Positions 1,302 to 20,583 of a stretch of 52,719 nt of DNA are shown here, one piece after another; position 1 is the first letter of the stretch; each line of letters opens with the position of its first letter. The position numbers were made by a program, and so were the translations under genes. The DNA is from Aliiruegeria lutimaris (GTDB lineage: Bacteria; Pseudomonadota; Alphaproteobacteria; Rhodobacterales; Rhodobacteraceae), in NCBI RefSeq assembly GCF_900099935.1, contig NZ_FNEK01000033.1, forward strand, positions 1-52,719. Reading direction: 5' to 3'. Below the pieces are notes generated by a model that did not search any database, was not told the DNA's origin, and saw only the letters and a list, made by a program, of their open reading frames with translations.

Positions 1302-1613
1302 ATGCAAAGCCAGAACATCCGCATCCGGCTGAAGGCGTTTGACTACCGAGTGCTGGACGCCAGCACGCAGGAAATCGTCAATACCGCCAAGCGGACGGGC
1401 GCACAGGTGCGTGGCCCGATCCCGTTGCCGAACAAGGTTGAGAAATTCACGGTTCTCCGTGGACCTCACATCGACAAGAAATCGCGCGACCAGTGGGAGA
1501 TCCGTACCCACAAGCGTCTGCTCGACATCGTGGACCCGACTCCGCAGACCGTGGACGCGCTGATGAAGCTCGACCTGGCTGCCGGCGTCGATGTCGAAAT
1601 CAAGCTGAACTAA
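1302..1613 (+). CDS. rpsJ: 30S ribosomal protein S10 (NusE)
   Basis: 103 residues, the usual length of S10. S10 is a 30S head protein and also serves as NusE in transcription antitermination. The core [14 protein letters not shown] and the segment [15 protein letters not shown] are typical of the family. It is the first gene of the S10 operon; rplC follows after 15 bases with a strong AAGGAGG ribosome binding site. The ATG at 1302 is chosen because it gives the standard N-terminus. Confidence 0.98.
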
Positions 1614-1628
1614 GGAGGGCATCAGATC

Positions 1629-2366
1629 ATGCGCTCTGGAGTTATCGCCAAGAAGGTGGGCATGACCCGCCTTTTCCTCGAGGACGGAAAGCAGATCCCT
1701 GTGACCGTTCTTCAACTCGACAACCTGCAGGTCGTCGACCAGCGCACCATGGACCGCGACGGGTATACCGCCGTGCAGCTGGGCGCCGGTTCGGCCAAGG
1801 CCAAGCGGACCTCGCAAGCCATGCGCGGTCACTTCTCTGCTGCCAACGTTGCGCCCAAGCGCAAGGTGGCCGAGTTCCGCGTGGACCCGGACAACCTGAT
1901 CGAGATCGGCGCCGAGATTTCCGCCGAGCACTACATCGAAGGCCAGAAGGTCGACGTTAGTGGCACCTCGATCGGTAAAGGTTTTGCCGGTGCCATGAAG
2001 CGGCACAACTTCGGCGGTCTGCGCGCCTCGCACGGCGTGTCGATCTCGCACCGTTCGCACGGTTCCACCGGTCAGTGTCAAGACCCGGGCCGCGTGTTCA
2101 AGGGCAAGAAGATGGCCGGTCACATGGGTGCTGCCCGTGTTACCACCCAGAACCTGGAAGTCGTTCGTATCGACGCCGACCGTGGCCTGATCATGGTCAA
2201 GGGCGCCGTGCCGGGCTCCAAGGGTGGCTGGGTCACCATCAAGGACGCCGTCAAGAAGAAGCTGCCGGAAGGCGTGCCGTTCCCGGCCGCGATCAAGGCC
2301 GCTGAAGCTGCCGCCGTCGCCGAGGCTCCGGCCGAAGCGCCTGCTGAAGGGGGTGCGGAAGAATGA
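1629..2366 (+). CDS. rplC: 50S ribosomal protein L3
   Basis: 245 residues. L3 is an early-assembly 50S protein that reaches the peptidyl-transferase centre. The family core ([13 protein letters not shown] near the N-terminus, [23 protein letters not shown] in the middle, here broken by its variable positions) is intact. It is longer than the roughly 209-residue E. coli protein because of an Ala/Glu/Pro-rich tail after about residue 220, a feature common in alphaproteobacteria. The gene overlaps rplD by four bases (ATGA), implying translational coupling. Confidence 0.98.
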
Positions 2367-2983
2367 AACTTGATGTGATCAAGCTCGACGGCGGGGCCGC
2401 CGGCGACGTGGAACTGTCCGAAGAGATCTTCGGCCTGGAGCCCCGTGCCGACATCCTGCACCGCGTGGTCCGCTGGCAGCGCAACAAGGCGCAGGCCGGT
2501 ACCCACAAGGTCAAGACCCGCTCGGAAACCAGCTACTCGACCAAGAAGATCTATCGCCAGAAGGGCACCGGTGGCGCTCGCCACGGCGACCGCAACGCGC
2601 CGATCTTCCGCAAGGGTGGTATCTACAAGGGCCCGACCCCGCGCAGCCATGCCCACGACCTTCCCAAGAAGGTCCGCAAGCTCGGCCTGAAGCACGCGCT
2701 GTCGTCCAAGGTGGCCTCCGGCAACCTCGTGATCATCGAGACCGCGGCGCTGGACGAAGCCAAGACCAAGATCCTGGCCAAGCAGGTCAAGGAACTCGGC
2801 TGGAAGCGTGTGTTGATCATCGATGGCTCGGAAGTGAACGAAAACTTCGCTCGCGCCGCTGCCAATATCGAAGGTCTGGACGTGCTGCCCTCGATCGGTG
2901 CCAACGTCATGGACATCCTCAAGCGTGACACGCTCGTGATCACGAAAGCGGGTGTCGAAGCTCTGGAGGCCCGTCTGAAATGA
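2363..2983 (+). CDS. rplD: 50S ribosomal protein L4
   Basis: 206 residues, normal for L4, which lines the peptide exit tunnel; in E. coli it also autoregulates the S10 operon. The conserved tunnel-loop region [15 protein letters not shown] and [13 protein letters not shown] are present. Overlaps of ATGA type with both rplC and rplW show tight coupling. No E. coli-type S10 leader is recognisable upstream of rpsJ, so L4-mediated control cannot be claimed from this sequence. Confidence 0.98.
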
Positions 2984-3276
2984 GCGTGAAAGCCGAATTT
3001 TACGACGTGATCCGCAAGCCCGTCATCACCGAGAAGGCCACCATGGCCTCCGAGGCGAATGCCGTGGTCTTCGAGGTCGCCATCGACGCCAACAAGCCGC
3101 AGATCAAGGAAGCCGTCGAAGGTCTCTTTGGTGTGAAGGTGAAAGCGGTCAACACGACCGTCACCAAGGGCAAGGTCAAGCGTTTCCGGGGCCAGCTCGG
3201 CAAGCGCAAGGCAGTCAAGAAAGCCTATGTGACCCTCGAAGAGGGTAACACGATCGACGTGTCCACCGGCCTCTGA
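2980..3276 (+). CDS. rplW: 50S ribosomal protein L23
   Basis: 98 residues, typical of L23, the docking site for trigger factor and SRP at the exit tunnel. The motifs [13 protein letters not shown] near the N-terminus and [18 protein letters not shown] are diagnostic. It overlaps rplD by four bases. An intrinsic terminator lies 26 bases after the stop, so the first S10 block ends here instead of running into rplB as in most bacteria. Confidence 0.98.
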
Positions 3277-3302
3277 GGCTAGGGACAGATCGGAAGAATG
3301 GG

Positions 3303-18557: not shown

Positions 18558-18653
18558 CGCCCGGTGGTCCCTATAGATCCGACTCAATCAACAAGAAATG
18601 CCGTGTTCGGCCGCTCCCGTCGCTGGGGGCCGCATCCGGCAAGGAGAAGCGAC

Positions 18654-19127
18654 ATGAAACTGCACGAACTCAGCCCCGCCGCGGGCTCGACCCCGACCAA
18701 GAAGCGCATCGCCCGTGGTGCCGGTTCCGGCAAGGGCAAGACCGCCGGTCGTGGTATCAAGGGTCAGAAATCCCGCTCGGGTGTGGCTCTGAACGGCTAC
18801 GAAGGCGGCCAGATGCCGCTCTACATGCGTCTGCCCAAGCGTGGCTTCAACAAGCCGAACCGCAAGGCCTGGGCCGTCGTGAACCTCGGCATCCTTCAGA
18901 AATTCATCGACGCCGGCAAGATCGACACCTCCGCGCCGGTCACCGAAGAAGTGCTCGTCGCTTCCGGCCTCGTGCGCCGTCAACTGGACGGTGTCCGGGT
19001 TCTGGCCAAGGGCGATTTCTCGGCCAAGGTCGAGCTTCAGGTCTCCGGCGCCTCCAAGTCGGCCGTCGAAGCCGTCGAGAAGGCTGGCGGCTCGCTGACT
19101 GTCACGAAGGCGGCAGCGGCCGAATAA
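18654..19127 (+). CDS. rplO: 50S ribosomal protein L15
   Basis: 157 residues from the ATG at 18654 (AAGGAGAAG upstream). L15 is a late-assembly 50S protein. [12 protein letters not shown], the Gly-rich [14 protein letters not shown] and [16 protein letters not shown] are conserved. It starts the fourth block, rplO-secY, after the accessory lipid-hydrolase genes. Confidence 0.97.
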
Positions 19128-19175
19128 GAGGTTGTGGGGGACGACGATGCCCCTTACTTAACCTTCAGTTTTCCA

Positions 19176-19207
19176 GCGCCGCCGACCGGGAAACGGTTCG
19201 GCGGCGC
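19176..19207 (+). promoter_or_regulatory. Strong intercistronic hairpin between rplO and secY
   Basis: GCGCCGCCGACCG (from 19176) pairs with CGGTTCGGCGGCGC (to 19207) with one bulged base. No T-tract follows, so it is more likely an RNA-processing or stability element that sets the ribosomal protein to SecY ratio than a terminator. Confidence 0.5.
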
Positions 19208-19227
19208 ATGCACAAGAGAGACCGCGA

Positions 19228-20583
19228 ATGGCATCTGCAGCAGAGCAAATGGCGGCGAACATGAGCTGGGGTGCGCTTGGTAAAGCGACCGAGCTCCGCC
19301 AGCGCATCTTCTTCACCATCGGGCTCCTGATCGTCTATCGCCTCGGCACCTATATCCCGGTGCCCGGCATTGACGGTGGGGCGCTCCGCGACTTCATGGA
19401 TCAGGCCGCGTCCGGTTTGGGCGGCATCCTGACCATGTTCACCGGCGGCGCGCTTGGCCGGATGGGCATCTTCGCCCTCGGCATCATGCCCTATATCTCG
19501 GCCTCGATCATCATCCAGCTGCTGGCCTCCATGGTGCCAGCGCTGGAGCAGTTGAAGAAAGAGGGCGAACAGGGCCGCAAGAAGATCAACCAGTACACGC
19601 GCTACGGCACCGTGTTCCTGGCCACCTTCCAGGCCTATGGCCTTGCGGTCAGCCTCGAGGCGGGTGGGCTTGCCCATGATCCGGGCTGGTTCTTCCGCGC
19701 GGCCGTGCTGATCACGCTGGTCGGCGGCACGATGTTCCTGATGTGGCTGGGCGAGCAGATCACCGCCCGTGGCATCGGCAACGGCATTTCGCTGATCATC
19801 TTCGTTGGCATCGTCGCCGAGATCCCCGCGGCCCTGGCACGTTTCCTTGCTTCCGGCCGCTCCGGCGCGATTTCGCCGGTGGTGATCATCGGGATCATCC
19901 TGATGATGGTCGCGCTTGTGGCCTTCGTGGTCTTCATGGAGCGCGCGCTGCGCAAGATCCACATCCAGTACCCACGCCGGCAAGTCGGCATGAAGGTCTA
20001 TGACGGCGGCTCCTCGCACCTGCCCGTCAAGGTGAACCCCGCGGGTGTTATCCCGGCGATCTTCGCCTCCTCGCTGCTGCTGTTGCCGACGACGATCTCG
20101 ACCTTCTCGGGCGGCAATACCGGTGCGGTCATGTCAACGCTGCTGGCCTATTTCGGTCCTGGACAGCCGCTCTACCTGCTGTTCTTCGCTTCGATGATCG
20201 TCTTCTTCACCTATTTCTACACGCTCAACGTGTCGTTCAAGGTGGATGATGTCGCCGACAACCTGAAGAACCAGAACGGCTTTGTGCCGGGTATCCGCCC
20301 GGGAAAGAAGACGGCGGAGTATCTCGAATATGTCGTGATGCGCGTGCTGGTGCTCGGTTCGGCCTACCTCGCTCTGGTGGCGCTGTTGCCGGAGATCCTG
20401 CGCAGCCAGCTCTCGATCCCGTTCTATTTCGGCGGCACCTCGGTCCTCATCGTCGTCTCGGTGACGATGGACACGATCCAGCAGGTCCAGTCGCACATGC
20501 TGGCCCACCAGTACGAGGGCCTGATCGAGAAATCGAACCTGCGCGGCAAGAAACGCCAGCGCAAGGCGCCCACGCGCCGCTGA
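19228..20583 (+). CDS. secY: Protein translocase subunit SecY
   Basis: 451 residues with ten hydrophobic segments. SecY is the channel of the Sec translocon in the inner membrane, working with SecE, SecG, SecA and ribosomes. RQRIFFTIGLLIVYRLGTYIPVPGI, shortened here to its first part, opens TM1; VKVNPAGVIPAIFASSLL and the cytoplasmic C5-type region GFVPGIRPGKKTAEYL are diagnostic. It is followed by an intrinsic terminator; adk, rpsM, rpsK, rpoA and rplQ do not follow. Confidence 0.97.
   Translation: MASAAEQMAANMSWGALGKATELRQRIFFTIGLLIVYRLGTYIPVPGIDGGALRDFMDQAASGLGGILTMFTGGALGRMGIFALGIMPYISASIIIQLLASMVPALEQLKKEGEQGRKKINQYTRYGTVFLATFQAYGLAVSLEAGGLAHDPGWFFRAAVLITLVGGTMFLMWLGEQITARGIGNGISLIIFVGIVAEIPAALARFLASGRSGAISPVVIIGIILMMVALVAFVVFMERALRKIHIQYPRRQVGMKVYDGGSSHLPVKVNPAGVIPAIFASSLLLLPTTISTFSGGNTGAVMSTLLAYFGPGQPLYLLFFASMIVFFTYFYTLNVSFKVDDVADNLKNQNGFVPGIRPGKKTAEYLEYVVMRVLVLGSAYLALVALLPEILRSQLSIPFYFGGTSVLIVVSVTMDTIQQVQSHMLAHQYEGLIEKSNLRGKKRQRKAPTRR

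Follow-up and report, generated by a model that had tools for sequence, protein, structure and literature searches.

The S10–spc ribosomal-protein gene cluster of Aliiruegeria lutimaris, and of many other Rhodobacteraceae, appears to be divided into four self-contained expression modules, three of which (modules B to D) are headed by leader RNAs and are probably under autogenous control. This reading, drawn from sequence comparison, is given a probability of roughly 70%. The stretch analyzed, hereafter the window, comprises 52,719 nt of contig NZ_FNEK01000033.1. S10–spc is among the most conserved gene clusters of bacteria and is a standard example of genes united by shared control. According to the proposed mechanism, a promoter and a structured 5′ leader would stand at the head of each of the modules B (rplB to rplP), C (rpmC to rpmD) and D (rplO to secY), and a terminator would close each of the modules A to C. 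Each leader would probably be bound by one of the ribosomal proteins encoded in its module whenever this protein is present in excess. Since every module would have on and off signals of its own, the intervening DNA would be free, so that genes could enter or leave it and whole modules could invert or move.

The window begins inside tuf, the gene of elongation factor EF-Tu, which lies just upstream of the cluster. Its ribosomal genes follow the canonical S10 and spc order, as stated in the initial annotation and borne out by the open reading frames (ORFs) and by tblastn comparison with relatives. All four blocks are encoded on the forward strand. Block A (rpsJ-rplC-rplD-rplW, positions 1302–3276) is separated from block B (rplB-rpsS-rplV-rpsC-rplP, 4672–7334) by a split after rplW, and further splits after rplP and rpmD delimit block C, which holds the 11 genes rpmC-rpsQ-rplN-rplX-rplE-rpsN-rpsH-rplF-rplR-rpsE-rpmD (11432–15733), and block D (18654–20583) with rplO (18654–19127) and secY (19228–20583). 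The strong terminators which had been claimed for rplW, rplP and rpmD are present at 3302–3327 (hairpin of −25.5 kcal/mol, z −4.0), 7402–7433 (−27.3 kcal/mol, z −6.3) and 15757–15783 (−28.8 kcal/mol, z −5.4), each with a T-rich tail, and the promoter-like sequences announced ahead of rplB, rpmC and rplO were located at 4489–4517 (TTGACC-17-TAAGAG), 11282–11310 (TTGCCC-17-TATAGA) and 18529–18557 (TTGAAA-17-TAAACG). Between promoter-like site and first gene lie the leader RNAs of rplB (4581–4669), rpmC (11364–11420) and rplO (18598–18656), the last of which ends at the start codon; since the start of rplO was corrected to 18654, the bases 5′ of this gene are leader and not coding sequence. Terminators and promoter-like sites recur at the junctions of relatives and each block after a break has its own leader, in agreement with the earlier suggestion that parts of the ribosomal set are controlled separately, although separate transcription itself is predicted from these signals.

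Relatives were compared in three samples. In 80 loci, which represent the best matches to the L14 protein of the window and are therefore biased towards its relatives, the ribosomal genes were placed by tblastn, and the window was added to the junction counts. A second sample of 120 family genomes was drawn evenly, and a third covered 289 genomes across the class under strict filters, so that weak leader members were possibly missed and non-matching genomes are mostly unlisted. Among the 80 loci and the window, gaps of more than 300 bp were found in 134 of 178 cases at the three junctions (rplW–rplB 33/53, rplP–rpmC 56/66, rpmD–rplO 45/59) vs. none of 1,256 measured at the remaining 18 junctions between rpsJ and secY. 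The tuf–rpsJ junction, which was excluded from this count, exceeds 300 bp in one locus (L027, 1,168 bp). The longest gap among the loci measures 6.2 kb. A neighbouring gene was absent, although 3 kb or more was available for it, in 3 loci at rplW–rplB, 11 at rplP–rpmC and 15 at rpmD–rplO, and in none at the other 18 junctions. Likewise, in the even sample the rpmC leader is located more than 300 nt 3′ of rplP in 55 of 71 genomes that have the two in line. A quick tree, built from ten concatenated module-C proteins, implies at least 9 changes between the large and the small state for gap 1 (rplW–rplB), at least 5 for gap 2 (rplP–rpmC) and at least 10 for gap 3 (rpmD–rplO); since 22 of its 76 inner branches have weak support, these and other change counts are approximate. 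The split at three fixed places is a pattern of many family members and not of the window alone.

The boundaries of the blocks are marked in the relatives as well. Terminator-like hairpins, for which one shuffle per sequence served as null and gave 0 or 1 hits, lie 3′ of rplW in 45/53, of rplP in 53/66 and of rpmD in 68/78 loci, and are completely absent after rplB, rpsS, rpsC, rpsQ, rplE and rpsE (63–81 loci each). They also occur 3′ of rplO in 14/59 loci and 3′ of secY in only 3/57; in the window such a hairpin follows secY at 20609–20630 (forward strand). The promoter-like pattern was fixed after the sequences had been viewed, with shuffles and in-block genes as controls: it was found 5′ of rpmC in 57/79 loci (2.6 expected from shuffles), of rplO in 39/59 (1.6 expected) and of rplB in 16/63 (1.5 expected), at the operon head rpsJ in 3/22 (0.5 expected), and in 0 or 1 locus each at seven in-block genes, whose upstream sequence is coding. 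Of the three junction terminators of the window a general terminator scan lists the one of rplP only, and an E. coli-type promoter scan lists none of the three junction sites and returned 5 sites vs. 3.4 by chance. Compact rplP–rpmC gaps carry a terminator 3′ of rplP in 10/10 and a promoter-like site 5′ of rpmC in 8/10 cases. Because such compact relatives already possess both signals, the punctuation of rpmC seems to be older than the insertions. Compact rpmD–rplO loci show fewer of them (terminators 6/14, promoter-like sites 6/14), and compact rplW–rplB gaps have terminators in 13/20 cases.

Structured RNA leaders head all three blocks that follow a break, a feature absent from the initial annotation. 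The rplB leader belongs to the L2-Alphaproteobacteria leader family RF03142, scores above the gathering threshold (44.9 vs. 37.8 bits) and ends 2 nt 5′ of rplB; the same family was found in 7/7 other loci scanned and in 87 of 120 family genomes, in 67 of them over the cut-off. For the leaders of rpmC and rplO, no Rfam 15 match was obtained at their positions at E values up to 5 (window positions 1100–20700), and none at gathering in 7 other loci. No report of these two leaders or of the three breaks was found in the literature, supplements and most subscription journals lying outside the search, and their novelty is provisional. What appears to be new is the leader at the head of each break, two of the three leaders being apparently undescribed and that of rplB already known.

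Covariance models of the rpmC leader (R1) and of the rplO leader (R2) match the window with E values of 3.6e-11 and 4.4e-13, respectively. The rpmC leader forms a long hairpin, in which a stem of 6 pairs is followed by an internal loop, 4 pairs, a bulge of 2 bases and at least 3 further pairs. Its alignment holds 72 of 78 distinct leaders, from which L065, where the leader is absent, as well as L049, L057, L062, L072 and L076 were left out. Pairing in this alignment extends to 98.3% of cells; two-sided changes are seen in 8 of the 13 pairs and amount to 89 cells compared with a shuffle mean of 21.5, and none of 500 shuffles reached as high in paired or in changed cells. Relative to the free fold, the median energy cost of enforcing the consensus pairs is 0 kcal/mol, with 65 of 72 sequences within 2 kcal/mol, and sliding the stem partners reduces pairing to at most 54% in both leaders. 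Both the rpmC and the rplO leader combine a covariation-backed structure with a consistent position 5′ of ribosomal-protein genes, two of the features by which ribosomal-protein leaders are recognised.

The rplO leader (57 aligned rows, 55 of them distinct) has two stems, an outer one that hardly varies and an inner one that covaries. Again 98.3% of cells are paired; two-sided changes were observed in 5 of 9 pairs and in 54 cells, and none of 500 shuffles came as high in paired or in changed cells. The bases of the apical loop are complementary to those that separate the ribosome-binding site (RBS) from AUG, with at least 5 Watson-Crick pairs in 57/57 rows (shuffled loops: mean 10.8, maximum 20) and at least 6 in 53/57 (mean 2.3, maximum 7). 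The resulting loop-to-spacer pseudoknot occurs in two registers, CGCUUC with GAAGCG in 32 and GUCGCU with AGCGAC in 23 of the 55 rows that were classed, and the register switches at least 9 times on the tree. Moreover, in L048 and L053 both partners are altered in matching fashion (GACGC with GCGUC). In module D, binding of the regulatory protein would stabilise this pseudoknot and thereby block translation.

In the even sample, strong matches occur once per genome in 91/120 genomes for R1 (E up to 2.5e-5) and in 99/120 for R2 (E up to 1.2e-4), whereas class-wide they were found in 4 of 289 genomes, all of this family. Three matches in other genomes (R1 at 1.2e-5 and 3.4e-4, R2 at 3.5e-3) were treated as chance; around them, tblastn with the ribosomal proteins of the window recognised no ribosomal gene within the fetched 5–6 kb.

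Two spacers within modules also deserve mention. Positions 11874–11950 (rpsQ–rplN) and 14826–14940 (rplR–rpsE) are conserved and form covarying stems in relatives, with two-sided changes in 5 of 8 pairs (73 sequences) and 11 of 12 pairs (61 sequences), respectively, and may represent internal regulatory elements.

Several observations weigh against leader-headed, separately controlled modules. Even with matches admitted up to E 0.1, 28 of the 120 family genomes show no R1 and 17 show no R2; the rplO leader occurs without the rpmC leader in 13 of 120, and in the compact relative L065 the former is kept and the latter not recognisable. The number of pairs with two-sided changes, as distinct from the number of cells, is reached by 7/500 shuffles for the rpmC leader (8 pairs) and by 5/500 for the rplO leader (5 pairs). 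Single-sequence folding of the two leaders of the window reveals no excess stability over shuffles (z −0.58 and −0.46), and in the window the consensus outer stem is missing from the best nested fold of the rplO leader. At rplB the link to a promoter is weaker, since promoter-like sites are found in 0/20 compact vs. 16/33 expanded gaps; here promoter and split seem to arise together. Transcripts may also read through the terminators. Finally, the consensus strands of both leaders are no nearer to the organism's 5.8-kb 23S rRNA contig than shuffles are, with the one exception of the rplO 5′ strand, which is slightly nearer (3 mismatches vs. a mean of 3.7), and neither covariance model matches this contig. 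Mimicry of rRNA finds no support in this comparison, whose scope is the 23S contig; the 16S rRNA was not compared separately. Since no resemblance to the 23S contig was detected, no ligand is named for the two leaders. Only some ribosomal-protein leaders imitate the rRNA site of their ligand.

The lack of an rRNA-like match in the 23S contig would also be expected if the rpmC and rplO leaders were regulatory without binding ribosomal proteins, acting instead as thermosensors, as sensors of small molecules or as constant structures for translation or processing, and the rplO pseudoknot alone could set the level of translation. This is a real, if minor, possibility. However, both leaders are located directly 5′ of a ribosomal-protein gene which heads a ribosomal-protein module, and the leader at the remaining break, that of rplB, is already classed as a ribosomal-protein leader.

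Natural rearrangements bear on the question whether the modules depend on a common transcript. Of 89 genomes that match both rplP and the rpmC leader, 71 have the leader 63–6280 nt 3′ of rplP on the same strand; pairs out of line, which include contig ends, amount to 18/89 for rplP and the rpmC leader and to 21/86 for the rpmC and rplO leaders. Fourteen genomes were selected for odd positions and stretches of each were read. In one of them (G101) the cluster is in line with a 6.3-kb gap, and in the other 13 it is rearranged; within the regions read, no break lies outside the three junctions. Module B has moved 206 kb away with A joined to C in G045, is inverted relative to C and D in G009, and is inverted together with C between A and D in G043. 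In G034, C is inverted relative to B and D lies 2.55 Mb away; in G088, D is inverted and 57 kb away; and in G110, C and D are oppositely oriented, 20 kb apart, and situated on a contig other than that of B. In the remaining seven (G023, G071, G010, G042, G106, G044 and G037), rplO-secY is found inside another contig. Throughout the stretches read from the rearranged genomes, the gene order within modules is intact, and the matches to the leader models lie immediately next to rpmC or extend over the start of rplO.

If the cluster were still largely transcribed as one long message, the gaps would be tolerated spacers, the hairpins leaky, and internal promoters would top up the distal genes. Such an arrangement agrees with the gene order mostly retained in relatives, with gap genes that in part lie on the same strand, and with the compact rplB gaps devoid of a promoter-like site, but it must accommodate gaps of up to 6.2 kb, opposite-strand genes in gap 2 of the window, and terminators in most loci. 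The 13 genomes with inverted or moved modules, moreover, should not exist if the modules required one transcript. A single message is regarded as unlikely.

The initial annotation counted eight non-ribosomal genes in the breaks, about seven of which are credible (one, four and two in gaps 1, 2 and 3); the eighth, an ORF at 15847–16119, is doubtful, as it has no family match and shares 70% identity with the nearest named relative, Aliiruegeria sabulilitoris (L002), compared with 87–90% for its neighbours. Gap 1 holds an ORF of 233 residues (3451–4152, forward strand) of unknown family, without Pfam match to E 0.1 and with sub-cutoff NCBIfam matches only. Gap 2 contains, besides the oxygenase described below, a Phd/YefM-type antitoxin-like protein (8289–8687, forward; PF02604, 31.2 bits with a cut-off of 29.8), a thermonuclease (SNase) homologue (8877–9488, reverse; PF00565, 4.5e-16) and a hydrophobic ORF of 414 residues (9981–11225, reverse), which has no counterpart in A. 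sabulilitoris. No toxin family was found among the scanned gap ORFs neighbouring the antitoxin-like protein. In the 80 loci neither the 233-residue nor the 414-residue ORF gave a tblastn hit. GC content drops from 63% overall to 48% (48.4%) in the gap 1 ORF and to 50% in the nuclease region. In gap 3, a glycerophosphodiester phosphodiesterase with a membrane domain (16071–17963, forward; PF03009, 3.2e-38; PF10110, 1e-13) is overlapped at the end of its gene by that of a 188-residue protein (17950–18516, forward), which could be assigned to no family, Pfam giving no match at E 0.1. The latter protein displays a CCxxHD stretch, which resembles the motif of prokaryotic phospholipases A2, and the two may constitute a lipid-turnover pair.

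That the breaks may be landing sites for acquired genes is supported by the variation in gap length and content and by the two inserts of low GC. Across relatives the same content is not fixed, apart from the 2-oxoglutarate (2OG) oxygenase. Among mechanically picked gap ORFs of at least 100 residues, some of which are surely not genes, 199 of 308 have no homologue in the gaps of other loci; two large clusters, present in 29 and 21 loci, correspond to the oxygenase and, seemingly, to the frame opposite to it. Even A. sabulilitoris differs in gap content: the central part of gap 1 and a 1.3-kb portion of gap 2 (window positions 9938–11269) find no counterpart there, while the ends of the gaps and the whole of gap 3 do match. 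Directly adjoining the unmatched part of gap 2, 162 bp with the promoter-like site and leader 5′ of rpmC (11270–11431) are identical in both species, compared with an identity of only 89% in rpmC and rpsQ, which points to strong constraint or local recombination. Exchange of cargo by homologous recombination in the conserved flanks would be the simplest mechanism.

At the three junctions conserved flanks enclose variable cargo, as is characteristic of integration hotspots. That the gaps were opened by a specific integrase or transposon, with the split as a by-product, is highly unlikely: constant flanks, changing content, two low-GC inserts and a short repeat that gap 1 of the window has in common with gap 2 of A. 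sabulilitoris accord with it, but the window contains no tRNA, the ten window gap ORFs scanned include no integrase or transposase, the repeats within its gaps are short and imperfect, with none of attachment type found, and the conserved leaders and promoters at the boundary would require another reason. The repeat in question, a stretch of about 150 bp at 4187–4337, occurs once more in the window's own genome (G000:C78, 79%), and gap 2 of A. sabulilitoris holds a similar stretch (79%). As a cause of the gaps, a mobile repeat (4165–4480) was rejected, one more partial genomic copy (79%) being too few.

The one lasting resident of the gaps is the 2OG-Fe(II) oxygenase of gap 2 (7487–8107, forward), a prolyl-hydroxylase-like protein which exceeds the curated cut-offs of TIGR02466 (285.6 vs. 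62.5 bits) and PF13759 (118.1 vs. 27 bits) and recurs beside rplP and rpmC in relatives. The usual metal motif of 2OG oxygenases is HxD...H. In this family H117, H119 and H185 are invariant, suggesting a metal site of three histidines instead. It is conceivable, though quite improbable, that in addition to leader-headed, separately feedback-controlled and freely shuffled modules, the oxygenase hydroxylates a product of the cluster, either EF-Tu or a ribosomal protein, for instance L16, and would thereby tie the ribosome to oxygen and 2-oxoglutarate. An L16 hydroxylase of the YcfD type (PF08007) was found over the cut-off in only 2 of 120 family genomes, so YcfD is not the general L16 hydroxylase of the family; this has no bearing on TIGR02466.

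In the S4 and S15 leaders of E. coli, a pseudoknot forms in the start codon region of a ribosomal-protein gene. The rplO leader resembles them in its start-region pseudoknot, a likeness by description and not by sequence, but differs in that its loop pairs with the RBS–AUG spacer in two alternative registers. With the S10 and spc operons of E. coli, as described in PMC2704228, the cluster shares genes, gene order and the principle of autogenous control. There, L29 and S17 close the S10 operon and L14 opens spc; an L4 site precedes rpsJ, and an S8 site falls between the genes of L24 and L5. In the present cluster, by contrast, breaks follow rplW, rplP and rpmD, each with its own leader thereafter. 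Table 1 of Eckert et al. 2020 (PMC7247131) gives rplB, rpsS, rplV and rpsC as genes regulated by RF03142, a motif rated borderline, and this table lists no leader of rpmC or rplO, both of which are present here. Insertions and disconnections of the conserved core cluster have been published in an account whose main text does not name Alphaproteobacteria; the events described here are alike but, unlike those, recur at three fixed, leader-headed junctions.

In conclusion, many members of one bacterial family carry this cluster broken at fixed places, and natural inversions and moves of its modules provide built-in controls. Whether independent feedback control frees ribosomal genes from the operon can be tested in these organisms, for which two leader RNAs, one of them with an explicit start-site pseudoknot, are offered for binding studies.

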